37,557 bases of DNA, from the NCBI GenBank assembly GCA_947474705.1, contig CANJJS010000049.1, positions 1 through 37,557 on the forward strand. Reading direction: 5' to 3'. The stretch is from Acetobacteraceae bacterium. GTDB taxonomy: Bacteria > Pseudomonadota > Alphaproteobacteria > Acetobacterales > Acetobacteraceae. Position 1 is the first letter of the stretch; each line of letters starts with the position of its first letter. Positions 6,804 through 34,896 of this stretch are shown piece by piece. The notes below the pieces were generated by a model. The model did not search any database. It was given only the letters and a program-made list of their open reading frames with translations, and was not told the DNA's origin. The position numbers and the translations under genes are program-made.

Positions 6804-6900
6804 GGTCGTATCCCCTTCCGGTTACGGTTGGCGCGGATTGAAGGACGATGCCGCGGACCGCGCAAGAGCGGGCCTCCTTCGCAAGGCGCGCTCAACCGGT

Positions 6901-6914
6901 ATGCTGCCGGAAAC
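6901..6914 (+). promoter_or_regulatory. 14-bp element shared with the SDR leader (copy 1)
   Basis: ATGCTGCCGGAAAC occurs here, 18 bases before the LLM oxidoreductase start, and again exactly at 8100-8113, 15 bases before the SDR start. Both copies also have GCGCTC a few bases upstream. The first copy contains TATGCT, which could be a -10 box. It may be a shared promoter or leader element. Confidence 0.4.
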
Positions 6915-6931
6915 ATACAGAGGACCCGGAC

Positions 6932-7744
6932 ATGAAATACGGCATCCACCTTCCCCACGCCGGCGAGCAGGCCACGCCCGCTTTGATCCGCCGCCACGCC
7001 GAGCGCGCCGAGGACCTCGGCCTCGAAGACGTCTGGGTCAGCGAACACATCATCGTGCCCCGCGACAAATTCCCCCGCTCTCCCTTGTTTTTCGATCCCG
7101 TTTTGTCGCTGACATGGGCCGCCGCCGTCACCAAACGGGTCAAACTGGGCACCAGCGTCCTGGTCTTGCCGATGCGCCACCCGCTGCCGCTGGCGAAGGA
7201 ACTGGCGACGCTGCAAAACTTTTCCGAGGGCCGGTTGATCCTTGGCGCCGGCTCCGGCTGGCTGAAAGAAGAATTCGCCGCCCTGGGCGTCCCCTTCAAT
7301 GAACGCGGCCGCCGGTTGGACGAGGGCCTGGCGATGATGCGCGCCGTCTGGTCGGAAGACCCCGTGACCTTCCCCAGTCGCTATATCCCCGCGGCGATCG
7401 AGGGTATGTCGATGACCCCCATGCCCGTCAGCCGCATCCCGCTGTGGTTCGGCGGAAGCTCCGACGCCGCGCTGAAACGCACCATCCGCATCGGCGACGG
7501 CTGGCACGGCAGCGGTCATACCGCCGAACAGGCCGCGCCCCTCATCGCGCGCCTGCGCGAGGCCCGGTCCGATCTCGCGATTTCCATGCGTATCCAGTGG
7601 GACGGCAAAGACCGTGGCGCGTTGCGCGCGCAGGTCGATAGCTATGCGGCGATCGGGGTGGGGCATCTGCTGATCGCGCCAACGGACCGGAACATCGACG
7701 ACTGGGAGGCGGTCACCGAGGGTGTTGGCGCGCTGGTGGGGTGA
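6932..7744 (+). CDS. LLM class flavin/F420-dependent oxidoreductase
   Basis: This 270-residue luciferase-like monooxygenase-fold protein shows the family landmarks: MKYGIHLPHAG at strand 1, AERAEDLGLEDVWVSEHII, VKLGTSVLVLPMRHPLPLAKELATL, then GRLILGAGSGWLKEEFAALG and the C-terminal IPLWFGGSSDAALKRTIRIGDGWHGSG. Proteins of this shape use FMN or coenzyme F420; because an F420 biosynthesis operon lies about 19 kb away, an F420-dependent reaction is plausible, but the cofactor is not shown by sequence. AGAGGA sits eight bases before the ATG, which favours this start over an upstream one at 6848. It is divergent from the VOC gene. Confidence 0.85.
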   Translation: MKYGIHLPHAGEQATPALIRRHAERAEDLGLEDVWVSEHIIVPRDKFPRSPLFFDPVLSLTWAAAVTKRVKLGTSVLVLPMRHPLPLAKELATLQNFSEGRLILGAGSGWLKEEFAALGVPFNERGRRLDEGLAMMRAVWSEDPVTFPSRYIPAAIEGMSMTPMPVSRIPLWFGGSSDAALKRTIRIGDGWHGSGHTAEQAAPLIARLREARSDLAISMRIQWDGKDRGALRAQVDSYAAIGVGHLLIAPTDRNIDDWEAVTEGVGALVG

Positions 7745-24358: not shown

Positions 24359-25492
24359 ATGCCAGCCGTGCACGCTCAGGTCCAAAAAGCACGCGATCTC
24401 ATGCCGGCGATCGCCGCCGCTTCGGCGGAGAACGACGACATCCGGGAACTGACGCAACCCGTCGTTAAAGCGCTGATCGATGGCGGGTTCTTCACCATGT
24501 TGAAGACGAAGGCGGTCGGCGGGATGGAGCTGAAACCTTCAATTTTCGCGCAGGTGACGGAAGCGATCGCCAGCGCCGACGGCTCGACCGGCTGGGTGGT
24601 TTGCCAAAGCAACGGATGCTCGACGACCAGCGCGTATCTGACGCCGGACATCGCCCAGACCATTTTTGGCCGGCCGGATGGCATCGTGGCCTGGGGGCCG
24701 CCTGGCTCGCCTTACGAGGCGACGCCGGTCGAAGGCGGATATCGCATCACCGGAAAATGGCGCTTCATGAGCGGTAGTCAGAACGCGACCTGGCTTGGGG
24801 CGCATCTGCGGGTCGCCGGAACCAGGGAAGCCAAGACTTTCCTCTATCCGAAATCCAGCGCCACATTCCACGATATTTGGCATACTCTCGGTTTGCGCGG
24901 CACCGCCAGCAATGAATATTCCGTCGATAATCTGTTCATTCCGCACGAACGCGCGATTTACCGCGACGACCCGCGCGACCGTCAAACCGATAGCCCGCTT
25001 TATCGTTTCAGTAGCAACCAGCTCTATTCGATCGGGTTCGGCGGAGTCGCGCTCGGCATCGCCCGTGGCACCATGGACGCGTTTCTGAACCTGCCACGGG
25101 AAAAAACCCGCCGCGGCGCCGCGAAACCCATGAGCGAAAACAACGTGGTCCAATCGCATGTCGCGCAATCCGAGGCCCGCTGGCGCTCGGCCCGTTATTT
25201 CCTGCACGCCGCCGCCGACGAAGCCCTCGAAACCATCGAGGAACGCGGCGCGATGGATCCGGAGCAACGCACCCGGCTTCGGCTCGCCTCCACCTGGGCG
25301 ATTCAATCCGCGCGCGAGATCGTCAATACGCTGTATCACGATTGCGGTTCGATGGCGGTCTTCGAGGAAAATCCCTTCGAGCGCCGGCTGCGCGATATCC
25401 ATACCGTCGCGCAACAAGGGCAGGGACGGATTCTGCATTACGAAACCGTCGGTCAGATCCTGCTGGGGCTCGACCCGGAAAACATTTTCTGA
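24359..25492 (+). CDS. acyl-CoA dehydrogenase-like flavin monooxygenase
   Basis: This 377-residue protein follows the acyl-CoA dehydrogenase fold of group D flavin monooxygenases (HsaA/HpaB C-terminal-like). An N-terminal helical domain is followed by a beta domain (YRITGKWRFMSGSQNATWLGAH; FHDIWHTLGLRGTASNEYSVDNLFIP) and a C-terminal four-helix domain (GVALGIARGTMDAFLNLP; SSTWAIQSAREIVNTLYHD-like). The GLRGTASNEY segment, where acyl-CoA dehydrogenases have a Gly-Thr-Ser-type flavin contact, supports flavin binding. The catalytic Glu of true acyl-CoA dehydrogenases is not evident. GAGGGAG precedes the ATG. It is convergent with the SDR that ends the F420 operon. Confidence 0.82.
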   Translation: MPAVHAQVQKARDLMPAIAAASAENDDIRELTQPVVKALIDGGFFTMLKTKAVGGMELKPSIFAQVTEAIASADGSTGWVVCQSNGCSTTSAYLTPDIAQTIFGRPDGIVAWGPPGSPYEATPVEGGYRITGKWRFMSGSQNATWLGAHLRVAGTREAKTFLYPKSSATFHDIWHTLGLRGTASNEYSVDNLFIPHERAIYRDDPRDRQTDSPLYRFSSNQLYSIGFGGVALGIARGTMDAFLNLPREKTRRGAAKPMSENNVVQSHVAQSEARWRSARYFLHAAADEALETIEERGAMDPEQRTRLRLASTWAIQSAREIVNTLYHDCGSMAVFEENPFERRLRDIHTVAQQGQGRILHYETVGQILLGLDPENIF

Positions 25493-25530: not shown

Positions 25531-26298
25531 TCACATCGCCGTCATGCCACCATCGACGGCACAGGCGGCGCCCGTGACGAAACGCGCGCGTTCCGAGCAA
25601 AGCCAGACCACGGTCTCCGCGACTTCTTCGGGCAGCCCAAGCCGGCCCATCGGAGTCCGTGCCCGAATCGCGTCGCCGTGCAACGCGGCCGCCAATTTCG
25701 TCATCCGCGTCTCCACGAAGCCCGGACAGACCGCGTTGACCCTGATCCCATCGGCGGCATATTCGATCGCGGCTGTTTTCGTCAGGCCGATCACCCCGTG
25801 CTTCGCCGCGACATACGCCGTTCCCGACGGCAGCCCCAACACCCCGGCGATCGACGCGTTGTTCGCGATGACACCGCCGCCATGCGCGAGCATCCAGGAA
25901 ATCTGATGCTTCATGCACAGAAAGACGCTTTTCAGATTGACCGCGATCATGCGGTCGAACGAGTCCTCCGACCACAGATGGGTCTTCTGTTGCAACGACC
26001 CCACCTGGTGCGGCGCGACCCCCGCGTTGTTGAACGCGATATCCAAACGCCCGAACGCGGCCACGGTCCCGGCGATCAGCGCCGCCACATCTTCTGGCCG
26101 GGTCACGTCGCCGCCCAGCGGCTCGGCCCGCCCGCCCATGGCGCCGATTGCATCCACGGTCGCGGCCGCGCTCTCACGCGTCAGGTCGGCGACAGCGACG
26201 AACGCGCCTTCTCGCGCCATGGCCAGAGCGGTGGCGCGGCCAATCCCACCGCCGCCGCCGGTCACCAGCGCCGTCTTACCATCCAGCAGCCCCGCCAT
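25531..26298 (-). CDS. SDR family oxidoreductase ending the F420 operon
   Basis: This 255-residue classical SDR has TGGGGGIGRATALAMAREGA, NNAGVAPH, Ser in ANNASIAGVLGL, YVAAKHGVIGLT and a C-terminal GAACAVDGGMTAM, giving the complete Ser-Tyr-Lys active site. The ATG at 26298 lies 11 bases after the cofC stop with GAGGGAG upstream, so it is the fifth gene of the fgd-cofE-cofD-cofC transcription unit. Classical SDRs use NAD(P); in this operon it could act on the same substrates as an F420-linked step. The longer upstream reading frame overlaps cofC and is not the start. Confidence 0.85.
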   Translation of the reverse strand: MAGLLDGKTALVTGGGGGIGRATALAMAREGAFVAVADLTRESAAATVDAIGAMGGRAEPLGGDVTRPEDVAALIAGTVAAFGRLDIAFNNAGVAPHQVGSLQQKTHLWSEDSFDRMIAVNLKSVFLCMKHQISWMLAHGGGVIANNASIAGVLGLPSGTAYVAAKHGVIGLTKTAAIEYAADGIRVNAVCPGFVETRMTKLAAALHGDAIRARTPMGRLGLPEEVAETVVWLCSERARFVTGAACAVDGGMTAM

Positions 26299-26309
26299 GG
26301 GAAACTCCC

Positions 26310-26957
26310 TCAGAGGCCAAAAGATTCCAGCAACCGCAGTGTTCGCGTGGGTTGACGTGGTTTGGCGCGCAGGAACGCCAACAGGTCGACGGGATGGTCG
26401 ATATCCAGCCCAATGCCGGGCATCCGGACGATCGTGGGCTCGATCCCCCGCGCCCGCGCGGCGATCAGATGCGGGAAGTAACTGTCGTCGCCAAACCGTA
26501 ACGTCACCGAGAACGGCGGCGAGCAGATCACCGCGTTCGATCCGAGTTCGTCGTGCGCGGGCACGATCGTGAATGAGGGCGCGTTCAGGCAGGACGACAC
26601 CACCGAGTCGATCTCCCACGACGTCACCCGCGGTATATCGCCGGGCATCGTCATCAGCGCGCCCTTGCCTTCCGCCGCCAGCACCCGCGCCATGCTGTTC
26701 ACCGCGCCGGTGTGTCCGTCGCGCGCGCCTTCCGTGACCACACGGGCGCCGTAACGTTCCGCCAGTGCCGCCGCGCGGGGATCGACGGTATTGACCAGAA
26801 TCCCCGCCAACCGCGTGGCACCGGCCAGCGCCGCCAGCACATCCTCCAGCATCGCTGCCGCCAGGAGTTCCCGCTGGTCCGGCCGCAACATCGCCGACAG
26901 CCGCGATTTGGCGCCGGTGAATTCCTTCACCGGCACGCAGGCCCAGACATCGGTCAT
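26310..26957 (-). CDS. cofC: 2-phospho-L-lactate guanylyltransferase (CofC/FbiD)
   Basis: This 215-residue nucleotidyltransferase-fold protein begins WACVPVKEFTGAKSRLSAML, the CofC nucleotide-binding start, and has the metal-site region ALMTMPGDIPRVTSWEID and the C-terminal GIGLDIDHPVDLLAFL. CofC activates 2-phospholactate, phosphoenolpyruvate or 3-phosphoglycerate with GTP for transfer to the deazaflavin Fo. Which substrate this enzyme prefers cannot be read here. Its ATG overlaps the cofD stop (ATGA), so the two are coupled. Confidence 0.92.
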   Translation of the reverse strand: MTDVWACVPVKEFTGAKSRLSAMLRPDQRELLAAAMLEDVLAALAGATRLAGILVNTVDPRAAALAERYGARVVTEGARDGHTGAVNSMARVLAAEGKGALMTMPGDIPRVTSWEIDSVVSSCLNAPSFTIVPAHDELGSNAVICSPPFSVTLRFGDDSYFPHLIAARARGIEPTIVRMPGIGLDIDHPVDLLAFLRAKPRQPTRTLRLLESFGL

Positions 26958-27901
26958 CGCGAGGCCTTGCGCCGCCGCAGGATCGCCGCGGCCTCGATGA
27001 CGGTGCGCGCCAAGGCCTCGCGATCTTCCATGGTCCGCATCAGCGTTTGCGCCAGGGTCACCCGCGCGTCGATCGAAACGACCTCCGACATATCGGCGTG
27101 GTCGATGACGTAGCCGTCCAGCAGATCGCGATATCTTTGCGCGACGGTGCCCGCGCTGGGGTCCATGCCGAGTTCCGTCATCATTTTCGCGGTCGGGCCC
27201 TTCACGGCCTGGCCCGCGATGATCGGCGAGACCGCGATGACCGGCGCCGGACTGTCGATCAGCGCCTGACGCACGCCGGGGATCGCCAGGATTGGCTCGA
27301 CCGAAATGAACGGGTTGGATGGGCAGATCACGATCGCCTGCAACGATGGGTCGGTCAGCGCCGCCAGAAATTCGGGATGCGCCCGCGCCGCGCCCGCGCC
27401 CTGGAACAGCAACTCGTGCACCACCGGCTCGCAGCGCCGATGGACGAAATATTCCTGGAAATCGAGCCAGCCCTCCGCGGTCCGCAGCCGCGTCCGCACG
27501 GGGTCGTCGCTCATCGGCACAACGCGGGATTTAATGCCGAGGCGCTGGCACAGATCGGCGGTCACGGCGGACAATGTCTCGCCTTTATGAAGGCGCCGTG
27601 TCCGTTCCACATGCAAGGCGATGTCGCGATCGCCCAAACGAAACCATGTGTCGCCACCGAGGGATTCCATGGTCTCCATGAACGACCAGGTCTCGTCGTG
27701 GCGCCCCCACCCCAGTTCGCGGTTGGCCAGTCCCGACAACGTATACGTCACCGTATCGATATCCGGCGAGATCGAAAGCCCGAGATGTTCGAAATCGTCG
27801 CCGGTGTTGACGACGACGACCAGTTCCTCGGGCGGCATGACGCGCGACAGGCCCAAGGCGAGTTTGGCGCCGCCGACGCCGCCGGATAACGCGACGATCA
27901 C
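26954..27901 (-). CDS. cofD: 2-phospho-L-lactate transferase (CofD/FbiA)
   Basis: This 315-residue CofD-family protein starts MIVALSGGVGGAKLALGLSRVM and carries NTGDDFEHLGLSISPDIDTV, the Asp-rich metal and Fo-binding motif; later segments PSNPFISVEPILAIPG and ISPIIAGQAVKGPTAK-like match the family. It transfers the activated phospholactyl (or related) group to Fo, giving F420-0 or dehydro-F420-0. The start is GTG, overlapping the cofE stop (GTGA). It is the central enzyme of the F420 pathway; its presence is strong evidence that the organism makes F420. Confidence 0.95.
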   Translation of the reverse strand: MIVALSGGVGGAKLALGLSRVMPPEELVVVVNTGDDFEHLGLSISPDIDTVTYTLSGLANRELGWGRHDETWSFMETMESLGGDTWFRLGDRDIALHVERTRRLHKGETLSAVTADLCQRLGIKSRVVPMSDDPVRTRLRTAEGWLDFQEYFVHRRCEPVVHELLFQGAGAARAHPEFLAALTDPSLQAIVICPSNPFISVEPILAIPGVRQALIDSPAPVIAVSPIIAGQAVKGPTAKMMTELGMDPSAGTVAQRYRDLLDGYVIDHADMSEVVSIDARVTLAQTLMRTMEDREALARTVIEAAAILRRRKASR

Positions 27902-28665
27902 TGGAACAAATCCTCATCGGGCGGGCGGACAAGTTCCGCGACGTTGGCTTCGGGCGCGGTCCAGGTCAGGCCGCGGACGACGACGACCGGCTGGCCCTCG
28001 GCCGCCTGTCCTTGCAACAAAGAGGCGGCGGCGGCGATTTCGTCGGCGAACCCGATGATGCTGACTTCCAGGATGCGGCCGAACAAATCGGGCTGTCCGC
28101 GGAGGTCGATGAACGAGGGCAGGCCCGCGCAACCGATCGCCACGCCCGCCGTGCCGCGGCGCCAGGGACGGCCGAAACTGTCGCTGATGACGCAGGCGAC
28201 GGGCGCGCCGAAATGTTCGCTCAACCCCGCCCGGATCTTTTCCGCCGACCCGTCGGGATCCAGCGGCAACAGCAGGGCCCGCTGGACACCGTCGTTGGGG
28301 GCGACATTCGATTGATCGACACCGGCGTTGGCCATCACGAAGCCCAGCCGGTGCTGCATGATCATCAGATTGGGCCGGCTGCGCACCACCCGCACCGAGT
28401 CCGACAGCACCACCTGCACAATCCGCGGGTCTTTCTCCACCTTCGCGGCGAGGTCCACCGCTTCCGGCGACGGAACGACCGTGGCGAGATCCACGGTGCG
28501 TCCTTCCGCCTTGGAGACGATTTTCTGCGCGACCACGACGACGTCGCGCGCCCGCAACGTCAGCCCCGCGGCCGCCGCCGCGGAAGCGATCGACGAGGGG
28601 AGATCGTCCCCGGCCTGTACCATCGGTATGCCGGGGATCGCGAAGATTTCCAGTTTGGCGCTCAT
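27898..28665 (-). CDS. cofE: coenzyme F420-0:L-glutamate ligase (CofE/FbiB N-terminal)
   Basis: This 255-residue protein has the CofE signature VISDSFGRPWRRGTAGVAIGCAG, the metal- and substrate-site motif, and an N-terminal GIPMVQAGDDLPSSIA as in the family. It adds L-glutamate to F420-0 with GTP. It is a single CofE domain, lacking the nitroreductase-like C-terminal domain of actinobacterial FbiB that reduces dehydro-F420, so that step (if needed) must be done elsewhere. The ATG lies 19 bases after the fgd stop. Confidence 0.94.
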   Translation of the reverse strand: MSAKLEIFAIPGIPMVQAGDDLPSSIASAAAAAGLTLRARDVVVVAQKIVSKAEGRTVDLATVVPSPEAVDLAAKVEKDPRIVQVVLSDSVRVVRSRPNLMIMQHRLGFVMANAGVDQSNVAPNDGVQRALLLPLDPDGSAEKIRAGLSEHFGAPVACVISDSFGRPWRRGTAGVAIGCAGLPSFIDLRGQPDLFGRILEVSIIGFADEIAAAASLLQGQAAEGQPVVVVRGLTWTAPEANVAELVRPPDEDLFQ

Positions 28666-28684
28666 GGGTGCGACGTGAGTTCGC

Positions 28685-29689
28685 TCAGTCGAAGCGCTTG
28701 CGCAGCTTCGGCAGCACCTGCTCGCCGTACAGCTTCAGGAACCGCGCCTGATCCGGGCCCGGCGCGTGGAACACCAGATGGCGGAATCCCATGTCGATAT
28801 AGGGTTTGATGCGTTCGATATGCTCGTCCGGGTCGTTGGACACGATCCAGCGGCTGGCGGCGCGTTCGATCGGCAGCGCGTCGGCCAGACGTTCCATTTC
28901 GACGGGGTCTTCCACCGACATTTTTTCTTCCGGCGTCAGCGCCAGGGCGGCCCAATGGCGGGTGTCGTCCAGCGCGCGCGCCTTGTCGGTGTCGAACGAG
29001 ACTTTCATCTCGATCATCCGGTCGTAATCCGGCTTCGGCTTGCTGGCGAGTTTCAGCCCTTCCTCGACGTTCGGCAACAGGGTCTTGTTGTAAAGGTCCC
29101 ACGCCTTGCCGCTGGTGCAGATGAACCCGTCGGTCATGCGGCCCGCGTATTTCGCGACCTGCGGCCCCGCGCCCGCGACATAGATCGGCACGGGGGTCGA
29201 GGGTTTGTCATAGATGGTCGCGCTCTCGGTCCGGTAGAATTCGCCCTCGAAGCTCAACCGATCCTCGGTCCAGAGGCGGCGGATCAGGGTCAGGGACTCA
29301 CGCAGGCGCGCGAAACGTTCTTTCATCTCCGGCCATTTCATGCCGGTGGAGGGCACTTCGTTCAGGCCCTCGCCGGTCCCAACTCCCAGAATGACCCGGC
29401 CCGGGAACATCGACCCGAGCGTGCCGAACACCTGCGCGACGACCGAGGGATGATAGCGGAATGTCGGCGTCAGCACGCTGGTGCCCATGACGATCCGGTT
29501 GGTGCTGGCGCCCAGCGCGCCCAGCCATGCCAAAGCGGAGGGCGCGTGGCCGTCGGTATGCTTCCATGGCTGAAAATGGTCGCTGATGAAGACGGAATCG
29601 AACCCGTTGCGCTCGGCTTCCACCGAGAAGTCCAGCAGCGGTTTGGGCGCGAACTGCTCCGCGGACGCTTTGTATCCAAGTTTCAGCAT
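28685..29689 (-). CDS. fgd: F420-dependent glucose-6-phosphate dehydrogenase-like protein
   Basis: This 334-residue LLM-fold protein is strikingly like mycobacterial FGD1 along its whole length: KLGYKASAEQFAP, SDHFQPWKHTDGHAP, GTSVLTPTFRYHPSVVAQ, GVGTGEGLNEVP, KYAGRMTDGFICTSGK, EEKMSVEDPVEMERLADALP and HLVFHAPGPDQARFL. The FGD active-site residues His40, Trp44 and Glu109 appear as H38, W42 and E107, and the phosphate-binding Lys198, Lys259 and Arg283 as K195, K256 and R280. This is unusual outside actinobacteria and indicates oxidation of glucose-6-phosphate (or a close sugar phosphate) with reduction of F420. It is the first gene of the cofECD operon, with AAGGAGGAT before the ATG. A related sugar-phosphate substrate remains possible. 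Confidence 0.88.
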   Translation of the reverse strand: MLKLGYKASAEQFAPKPLLDFSVEAERNGFDSVFISDHFQPWKHTDGHAPSALAWLGALGASTNRIVMGTSVLTPTFRYHPSVVAQVFGTLGSMFPGRVILGVGTGEGLNEVPSTGMKWPEMKERFARLRESLTLIRRLWTEDRLSFEGEFYRTESATIYDKPSTPVPIYVAGAGPQVAKYAGRMTDGFICTSGKAWDLYNKTLLPNVEEGLKLASKPKPDYDRMIEMKVSFDTDKARALDDTRHWAALALTPEEKMSVEDPVEMERLADALPIERAASRWIVSNDPDEHIERIKPYIDMGFRHLVFHAPGPDQARFLKLYGEQVLPKLRKRFD

Positions 29690-29959: not shown

Positions 29960-30250
29960 CTACCGGACGGGATTGTATTCGTAATCTTCGCGCGAACTCC
30001 CCTCGGCCCGTAAACCCGGCGGCAGCGGCGCGCGCGTGGCGTTGACACCGGCGTGCACATCCAGCGCCGCCTGGTCCTTCCACAGTTCCAGCAGCGTCAG
30101 CCGGTCGGGGTCGAGAACACTCTGAAACACCTCGAACTGCTCGCAGCCCGGTTCTTTCATGACCTCGGCGCAGCGCTCCCGGTAAACACGGGCCAGTTCG
30201 GCGCCCTTGCCAGGCATGGCGGCGATGTTGACGACCAGACGGACCTTCAT
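29960..30250 (-). CDS. antibiotic biosynthesis monooxygenase (ABM) family protein
   Basis: This 96-residue protein has the dimeric alpha/beta-barrel pattern of ABM proteins: VRLVVNIAAMPGKGAELARVYRE, GCEQFEVFQSVLDPDRLTLLELWKDQAALDVHAG. Such proteins include cofactor-free quinone monooxygenases (YgiN), heme-degrading enzymes and uncharacterised redox proteins. The ATG at 30250 follows GGGAG; a GTG five codons upstream is less likely. It lies upstream of the F420 operon on the same strand, separated from it by the hydrolase remnant. Confidence 0.75.
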   Translation of the reverse strand: MKVRLVVNIAAMPGKGAELARVYRERCAEVMKEPGCEQFEVFQSVLDPDRLTLLELWKDQAALDVHAGVNATRAPLPPGLRAEGSSREDYEYNPVR

Positions 30251-30308
30251 GTTGTTTTCTCCCACCCTTGAACCATAACGGGGAGTAGTGACCGGCCCCG
30301 CGCGGCCG

Positions 30309-33131: not shown

Positions 33132-33941
33132 GTGCTGGAACTCACCCATCTGACCCGCCGGTTCGGCGCGAACACGGCGGTGGCCAACGTGAACCTGCGC
33201 ATCGACGCGGGCGAAATGATTGGCATCGTCGGCCGCTCCGGCGCCGGGAAATCCACCCTGCTGCGCCTGATCAACCGGATGATCGAGCCCACCGAGGGTT
33301 CGATCAGGTCCAATGGCACCGATATCGTCGCGCTCCGGGGCAAGGACCTGCGGCAGTGGCGCGCCCGTGCCGCGATGATCTTTCAGCAGTTCAATCTGGT
33401 ACACCGCCTGGATGTGCTGACCAACGTGCTCTGCGGCGCGCTGCACGAGGTCCCCACGCACCGCATGCTGTTGAAATGGTTCACGGAAGCCGAGCGCATC
33501 CGGGCGATCCGGGCGCTCGATAAAGTCGGCCTCGCGGAGTTCGCGATGAACCGCGCCGACGCGCTCTCCGGTGGTCAGCAGCAGCGGGTCGCCATCGCCC
33601 GCGCGCTGATGCAGACGCCGGGGATCGTGCTGGCCGATGAGCCCATCGCCTCGCTCGATCCGATGAACGCGAAGACCGTCATGGACACGCTCGCCGCGAT
33701 CAATCGCGACGAGGGCATCGCCGTGCTTTGCAACCTGCATACGCTCGACACCGCCCGCGCCTATTGCCGCCGTATTATTGGCATGGCGGCCGGACGGATC
33801 GTGTTCGACGGCGCGCCGGAACAACTCACCGACGCCGCGTTGCGCGAGATCTATGGCGCCGGGGCCGCCGAGGGCCTGGACGAGCGCATGACCTCGACCA
33901 GCCTGCCCGAGGCGGCGATGCCCGCCATGGCGCGGGCCTGA
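33132..33941 (+). CDS. phnC: phosphonate-type ABC transporter ATP-binding protein
   Basis: This 269-residue ABC ATPase has Walker [20 protein letters not shown], the PhnC-like [21 protein letters not shown], signature [17 protein letters not shown], Walker [15 protein letters not shown] and switch His CNLHTLD. The [11 protein letters not shown] segment points to the PhnC subgroup (phosphonate, phosphite or related anion uptake). The start is GTG with a weak ribosome-binding site. It is followed by phnD after 31 bases. The 132-base gap from ctrA contains a lone CTGTCAC, which is only half of a PhoB box. Confidence 0.9.
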
Positions 33942-33972
33942 CCCCAATCCATCCACGATGAGGAACCACAGC

Positions 33973-34896
33973 ATGCTCCGCCGTACATTCGCGGGCCTCG
34001 CCTTGAGCGCGGCCCTGATCCCGGCCGCGAAGGCGCAGGACTGGAAAGCCACCGTCAAGGAACTTCGTATCGGGCTCTTGGGCGGCGAGAACGCCTCGGA
34101 CCGCCTGAAGAAGCACGACGGATTTCAGAAGCTGTTGGAATCCAAACTGGGCATTCCCGTGAAGATGTTCCCCTCCGCCGATTACGCCGGCGTGATGCAG
34201 GGCATGGCCGCGGGCCAGATCGACGCGGCCGGGCACGGCGCCTCGTCCTTCGCGGGCACCTGGCTGGATTGCAAATGCGTCGAACCCATTGTCGTCCCCC
34301 AGGAAAACGATGGGTCCGTCTTTTACTATTCCGCGATGGTGACGCGCAAAGACAGCGGCATCACTTCCATCGAGCAGATGAAAGGCCATTCTCTGGCCTT
34401 CGCCGATCCGAACTCCACGTCCGGCTATCTGATCCCCAGCGCGACGCTGAAAGCCAAGGGGATCGACCTCGCGGACGGGAAATATTTCTCCAAGGTCGGC
34501 TTCGCGGGCGGGCACGAGCAAGGCGTGATCGCGGTGCTGAACAAGCAATACGACGCCTGCGTGACCTGGACCTCCGGCCAGGGCGAGAAGTCCGAAGGCT
34601 ACAGCCGCGGCAATCTTCGCTCGATGGTCGACAAGGGCATGCTGAAAATGTCCGACGTGAACATCATCTGGCAGTCCGGCAAAATCCCCAACGGCCCCTT
34701 CGCGGTGCGCAGCGCGCTGCCCGCCGATCTGAAGAAACTGCTCACGGAAATCATGCTGGACCTGCCGAAATCGCACCCGGACATCTACAAAGCGATCGAA
34801 CAAGGCTCTGGCGTGGGCTACGTCCCCGGCACGATGGACCTTTACAAAGACATCATCGAACTGCGCGAAGCCGAACGCCGCGGCGGCCGGTCCTGA
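33973..34896 (+). CDS. phnD: phosphonate-type ABC transporter substrate-binding protein
   Basis: This 307-residue periplasmic protein has a signal peptide MLRRTFAGLALSAALIPAAKA (cleavage probably before QDW) and then LRIGLLGGENASDRLKKHDG, FPSADYAGVMQGMAAGQIDA, and SAMVTRKDSGITSIEQMKGHSLAFADPNSTSGYLIP, the last being the PhnD anion-binding loop. It captures phosphonate or a related oxyanion for the permeases downstream. The ATG at 33973 has AGGA ten bases upstream and gives the proper signal peptide. It is separated from the permease genes by 381 bases holding a large palindrome. Confidence 0.9.
   Translation: MLRRTFAGLALSAALIPAAKAQDWKATVKELRIGLLGGENASDRLKKHDGFQKLLESKLGIPVKMFPSADYAGVMQGMAAGQIDAAGHGASSFAGTWLDCKCVEPIVVPQENDGSVFYYSAMVTRKDSGITSIEQMKGHSLAFADPNSTSGYLIPSATLKAKGIDLADGKYFSKVGFAGGHEQGVIAVLNKQYDACVTWTSGQGEKSEGYSRGNLRSMVDKGMLKMSDVNIIWQSGKIPNGPFAVRSALPADLKKLLTEIMLDLPKSHPDIYKAIEQGSGVGYVPGTMDLYKDIIELREAERRGGRS

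Follow-up and report, generated by a model that had tools for sequence, protein, structure and literature searches.

The locus described here raises the question of how an alphaproteobacterium that encodes the synthesis of coenzyme F420 would reduce this cofactor. The window, a stretch of 37,557 nucleotides, is one entire contig (CANJJS010000049.1; C49) of the genome of an Acetobacteraceae bacterium (GCA_947474705.1; G000; 5.48 Mb, 205 contigs, completeness 99.27%, contamination 3.2%). According to open reading frames (ORFs) and translations, its minus strand carries a run of fgd, cofE, cofD, cofC and an SDR gene (Table 1). In the profile search, all four F420 genes exceed their NCBIfam equivalog cut-offs with scores far beyond chance. 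The proposal of a first-pass annotation that they lie in one leftward unit is confirmed. It is very likely, judging from sequence, that the run is an F420 operon with an enzyme of the F420-dependent glucose-6-phosphate dehydrogenase (FGD) family that charges F420. A wider proposal has an even chance of being correct: Alphaproteobacteria would charge F420 either by FGD, with sugar phosphate, or by the NADPH:F420 oxidoreductase Fno, with NADPH. The two enzymes would be mutually exclusive, compete for one operon slot and have replaced one another several times while the cof operon was kept, leaving the electron source switchable.

The wider proposal starts from the co-occurrence of the two enzymes. 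Among the 385 genomes of the class sample, cofD is found in 58, and FGD passes the cut-off of its equivalog model in nine, all of them among these 58. Fno is over the cut-off of its model (TIGR01915) in 46 of the cofD genomes, and no genome holds both; it is thus over cut-off in 0/9 FGD genomes (best match 29.5 bits) versus 46/49 other cofD genomes (Fisher p 2.1e-8, a value that ignores descent). Three cofD genomes have neither enzyme over cut-off. Two of these (G059, G258) carry pieces of Fno ahead of cofE, where their contigs end; in the third (G041) the contig starts inside cofE. Fno is likewise over cut-off in none of the 23 proteobacterial genomes with named FGD loci (best 38.4 bits); 26 genomes with named FGD loci were searched in all, and three of the 23 look like members of the genus sample.

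The two genes also tend to share a position. Where npdG, the gene for Fno, lies in the fetched stretch (43 of the 49 non-FGD loci), it is found directly before cofE on the same strand in 41 loci (gap 21-230). Of 74 named proteobacterial loci, 64 have fgd in the same place, on the same strand and within 400 bases of cofE; these 74 are the best 80 named loci minus six from other phyla and therefore near kin by choice. Fno/NpdG has the same predicted role as the FGD of the window and often occupies the same slot in other Alphaproteobacteria, but it is a Rossmann-fold protein whereas FGD is a TIM barrel, according to a 2021 review (PMC8498797). No Fno match was found in the genome of the window at E 0.001.

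Exchange of the two enzymes was traced on the more careful of two CofE+CofD trees (57 rows), from which L232 was dropped as a long branch. The FGD label requires five changes on this tree (5-95% range 5-5, from a bootstrap that is not fully settled). A quick tree that includes L232 also gives five, as does a recount that leaves L194/G041, which has neither enzyme and was labelled Fno-type, without a state. A single FGD clade is rejected by the approximately unbiased (AU) test (p 2.1e-6, run after the tree was seen). FGD and Fno rows stand as supported sisters in two places, namely L201 with L208 (100/99) and L200 with L238 and L249 (98/90). This suggests that two unrelated F420-reducing modules were exchanged repeatedly, with at least five state changes on the CofE+CofD tree. 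The exchange in place is a reading from gene order, not one observed between sister species.

Several observations weigh against the either-or proposal. In the class sample, fgd occupies the slot before cofE in only five of the nine FGD genomes (the window, L212, L217, L222 and L238). In L201 it is adjacent to cofE but divergent, L203 and L249 have it at a distance of 10 and 16 kb, and G050 has it on another contig than cofD. Of the 14 control genomes only 3 reach the Fno cut-off, and Fno matches of 81-87 bits, below the cut-off, occur in two actinobacterial FGD genomes, so that the search could overlook a divergent Fno. The tree contains only five independent pairs; Fno differs in the opposite way in four to five of them and in the same way in none (sign test p 0.06-0.125). 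This failure to reach 0.05 would also fit an explanation by descent, in which operons of the FGD type and of the Fno type represent ancient alternative lineages, inherited or moved whole. Four of the nine FGD rows, that of the window included, do form one supported CofE+CofD clade (100/97), as descent would have it. The AU result and the supported FGD/Fno sister rows speak against this explanation, and we regard it as unlikely; repeated exchange is preferred.

The enzyme at the head of the operon (P0001) matches solved FGD structures over its full length (5lxe, 59% identity; 3b4y, 58%). The first-pass annotation had described a full-length match to mycobacterial FGD1 with H38/W42/E107 and K195/K256/R280 kept, and both statements hold in the alignment with 5lxe and 3b4y. 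The F420 and catalytic residues D37, H38, W42 and E107 and the phosphate residues T192, K195, K256 and R280 are all present. These eight positions are invariant in 37/37 alphaproteobacterial rows (window included) and in 74/74 named proteobacterial rows, two sets that share some genomes. In 18/18 actinobacterial relatives under the FGD cut-off, K195 is Pro, Ala or Ser and T192 is also replaced, while K256 and R280 are retained. K195 is, at the level of sequence comparison, the telling residue of the phosphate-binding set. L048, which lies below the cut-off and has a stop within its match, was excluded from the residue table.

Glucose-6-phosphate is most likely the main predicted substrate of P0001. 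Against a strict glucose-6-phosphate specificity stands the pocket residue, which is Ala174 in P0001 (Gly177 in 3b4y). The paper that describes the F420-dependent sugar-6-phosphate dehydrogenases (FSD) assigns Gly to FGD and Ser to FSD (Ser175 in FSD-Noca) at this position, as a proposed marker and not a functional test (PMC6279831). Across the 74 named proteobacterial rows the position is Ala in 62, Gly in 10 and Ser in two. P0001 is therefore filed, from its sequence, in the FGD/FSD family and not in the glucose-6-phosphate-specific subclade, since Ala174 fits neither marker. It also has Met257 where 3b4y has His260, beside the phosphate Lys. These two replacements, its place outside the canonical actinobacterial FGD clade and a lower TIGR03554 score (479.7 bits versus 551.6-735.5 in ten actinobacterial loci, L134-L143) would suit a broad, FSD-like sugar-6-phosphate dehydrogenase, a reading with an appreciable, minority share of the probability. 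On the other side, P0001 passes the glucose-6-phosphate equivalog cut-off of 420 bits and lacks the Ser that marks FSD. FSD enzymes likewise prefer glucose-6-phosphate, and by the paper's account (PMC6279831) their phosphate residues are the same as those of FGD and P0001, so these residues cannot separate the two groups. FSD enters this comparison by that description, and the FGD tree was built without FSD reference sequences. Compared with the solved FGDs, P0001 belongs to a separate clade, and its gene directly precedes cofE-cofD-cofC. Six members of the genus (G030:C97, G018:C38, G024:C49, G029:C277, G007:C90 and G006:C42) encode a further FGD-related protein, which scores 208.6-220.3 bits, under the FGD cut-off.

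The first-pass annotation considered an FGD in a Gram-negative bacterium unusual. This view is not upheld, because 28 of the 33 genus-sample genomes have an FGD over cut-off (own genome included; the five without it are 64-86% complete) and the enzyme had already been predicted for Alphaproteobacteria. Among the best 80 named FGD loci are ones from Bradyrhizobium, Ancylobacter, Devosia, Reyranella and others, and the nearest to P0001 are Acidisphaera and Rhodopila records (85-87%). By this protein identity the host would be an Acetobacteraceae-type alphaproteobacterium, kin to these two genera. L053, L091 and L106, from possibly mislabelled MAG records titled Asaia bogorensis (twice) and Bordetella parapertussis, were used only as proteobacterial. 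In other phyla, FGD is over cut-off in 12/246 genomes of the phylum sample of Herbiconiux and in 34/251 of the phylum sample of a Chloroflexi record. The prediction of Fgd in alphaproteobacterial F420 producers appears in the 2021 review, with the table entry 'Alphaproteobacteria?' (PMC8498797). There it is predicted 'in addition to Fno', whereas here both are over cut-off in none of the nine class or 23 named proteobacterial FGD genomes. The operon of the window is, by sequence, an alphaproteobacterial F420 operon of ordinary, well-formed make-up, and it belongs to a kind that is known and was predicted before. Neither the FGD/Fno either-or pattern nor a report of F420 in Acetobacteraceae was found in searches limited to open-licence papers.

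The origin of fgd was addressed by an unrooted tree of 73 rows, hand-chosen from 177 matching loci together with the window and two solved chains. The outgroup was excluded, as was L179, a duplicate of L111. The FGD of the window falls inside an Acetobacteraceae clade (99/88), 12 canonical actinobacterial rows form a clade of their own (100/99), and 19 of 20 Chloroflexota rows form another (95/87). The proteobacterial rows do not lie on one side of a branch (four changes), and one Chloroflexi row stands among them. The suggestion that a complete F420 reduction route was recently transferred from Actinobacteria into this lineage, which the patchy distribution in the class (9/385) might favour, is very improbable in view of this topology and of the presence of FGD in most genus genomes. 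Three Herbiconiux/Nakamurella rows do join the proteobacterial rows in one set (40 rows, 97/89), with weak support for their exact place (89/70). As the tree is unrooted, older transfers may have occurred in either direction. A quick tree that took the below-cut-off family as its root placed actinobacterial and Chloroflexi FGD inside proteobacterial diversity; it was set aside because of its very long outgroup branch (3.01).

The F420 biosynthesis set of the genome is complete by presence: FbiC (CofG+CofH), CofC, CofD and CofE. FbiC is a fused CofG-CofH protein encoded on another contig than the operon, and the cofD of the window is the sole CofD match in the genome at E 0.001. CofC has Gly in the motif RFGDDS at the position where Ser or Thr marks enzymes for 3-phosphoglycerate (3-PG), according to PMC8764529. 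The 3PG-F420 variant (Mycetohabitans type) is ruled against by this Gly. The expected substrate is therefore 2-phospho-L-lactate (2-PL) or phosphoenolpyruvate (PEP), although among solved relatives the best-scoring one, 7p97 (E 4.4e-22), is a 3-PG enzyme; 6bwg follows (6.6e-16). CofE is without the FbiB-type nitroreductase half.

The first-pass annotation had further suggested a complete F420 reduction route, either transferred or retained. A recent import is not supported; F420 reduction driven by FGD is the best reading, because FbiC, CofC, CofD and CofE occur together with an FGD-family enzyme that has the sugar-phosphate residues, and Fno is not matched. Two points count against this reading. 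No FbiB-type dehydro-F420-0 reductase was found in the genome (best 25.3 bits, cut-off 249.55, with a model that 0/14 control genomes pass), which leaves the last step of a PEP route unassigned; another nitroreductase may serve this saturating step. The proposed consumers of F420H2 are candidates only, as the LLM class also includes FMN users.

From gene order, family membership, conserved residues, co-occurrence and the tree, the operon is predicted to work as follows. FbiC would make FO, to which CofC, CofD and CofE would attach a phospho-lactyl (or PEP-derived) linker and glutamates. The FGD would then take hydride from glucose-6-phosphate, and possibly from other sugar-6-phosphates, yielding F420H2 and phosphogluconolactone, and F420H2 would serve LLM-class oxidoreductases. 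In this class, the slot before cofE would tend to hold FGD or the unrelated NADPH-dependent Fno as alternative chargers of the same cofactor, exchanged several times.

Within the operon, a Shine-Dalgarno-like aaggagg precedes the ATG of fgd. The first-pass annotation had placed 4-base overlaps throughout the unit; they are found between cofE and cofD and between cofD and cofC only, and a gap of 19 bases lies between fgd and cofE. The range that it gave, 25531-29689, also includes the SDR gene, which was left unnamed and starts 11 bases past cofC (a start chosen by us; the longest ORF begins at 26619). The SDR passes PRK07231, a broad subfamily model named 'glucose 1-dehydrogenase', and scores 293.3 bits against PRK06172, under the cut-off of 336. 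No SDR match of at least 150 bits was found in 20 kin loci, about 17 of which extend 1 kb beyond cofC, and the SDR is probably a local neighbour outside the F420 pathway. Two further neighbours were recorded, an HsaA-like protein convergent with the SDR and a small antibiotic biosynthesis monooxygenase (ABM)-domain protein, encoded upstream of fgd and on its strand. The SDR, HsaA-like and ABM proteins were rejected as members of the pathway, since at the bit limits applied none was found in the 20 kin loci.

Table 1 Features of the F420 locus, its neighbourhood and the fbiC region (window positions unless a contig is given)
Feature	Position	Strand	Profile match or remark
fgd, F420-dependent glucose(sugar)-6-phosphate dehydrogenase family (P0001), 334 aa	28685-29689	-	TIGR03554 equivalog, 479.7 bits (cut-off 420)
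cofE, coenzyme F420-0:L-glutamate ligase, single domain, 255 aa	27898-28665	-	TIGR01916, 277.5 bits (180.65); Pfam F420_ligase
cofD, 2-phospho-L-lactate transferase family, 315 aa, GTG start	26954-27901	-	TIGR01819, 309.8 bits (257.45)
cofC, 2-phospho-L-lactate/PEP guanylyltransferase family, 215 aa	26310-26957	-	TIGR03552, 125 bits (105)
SDR oxidoreductase, last gene of the run	25531-26298	-	PRK07231, 227 bits (215)
HsaA-like flavin monooxygenase/acyl-CoA dehydrogenase fold protein	24359-25492	+	168.7 bits, below cut-off (450)
Small ABM-domain protein	29960-30265	-	52.3 bits (23.1)
LLM-class oxidoreductase, possible F420 user, outside the operon	6848-7744	+	TIGR03619 (F420-dependent LLM), 205.8 bits (166.9)
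ORFs, presumably a phosphonate-type ABC transporter (ATPase and binding protein)	33132-34896	+	resemblance in the translation
fbiC, 780 aa	G000:C22:41159-43501		CofGH equivalog, 1121.3 bits (1018); both domain models passed
Two LLM genes beside fbiC, overlapping by 4 bases, possible F420H2 users	G000:C22:43799-45738 (L129 10800-12739)	divergent from fbiC	TIGR03619, 238 and 216.2 bits (166.9)

The operon of the window adds one member to a predicted group. The part worth following is the either-or relation of FGD and Fno, which goes beyond the 2021 review in its available part (PMC8498797). If the pattern holds, F420 in these bacteria would be fed from one main source, and the pattern would predict where F420H2 is supplied at the expense of sugar phosphates and where at that of NADPH. 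According to that review (PMC8498797), no F420-reducing dehydrogenase of these bacteria had been studied by experiment outside Actinobacteria as of 2021; the pattern would therefore help to choose strains for such tests.

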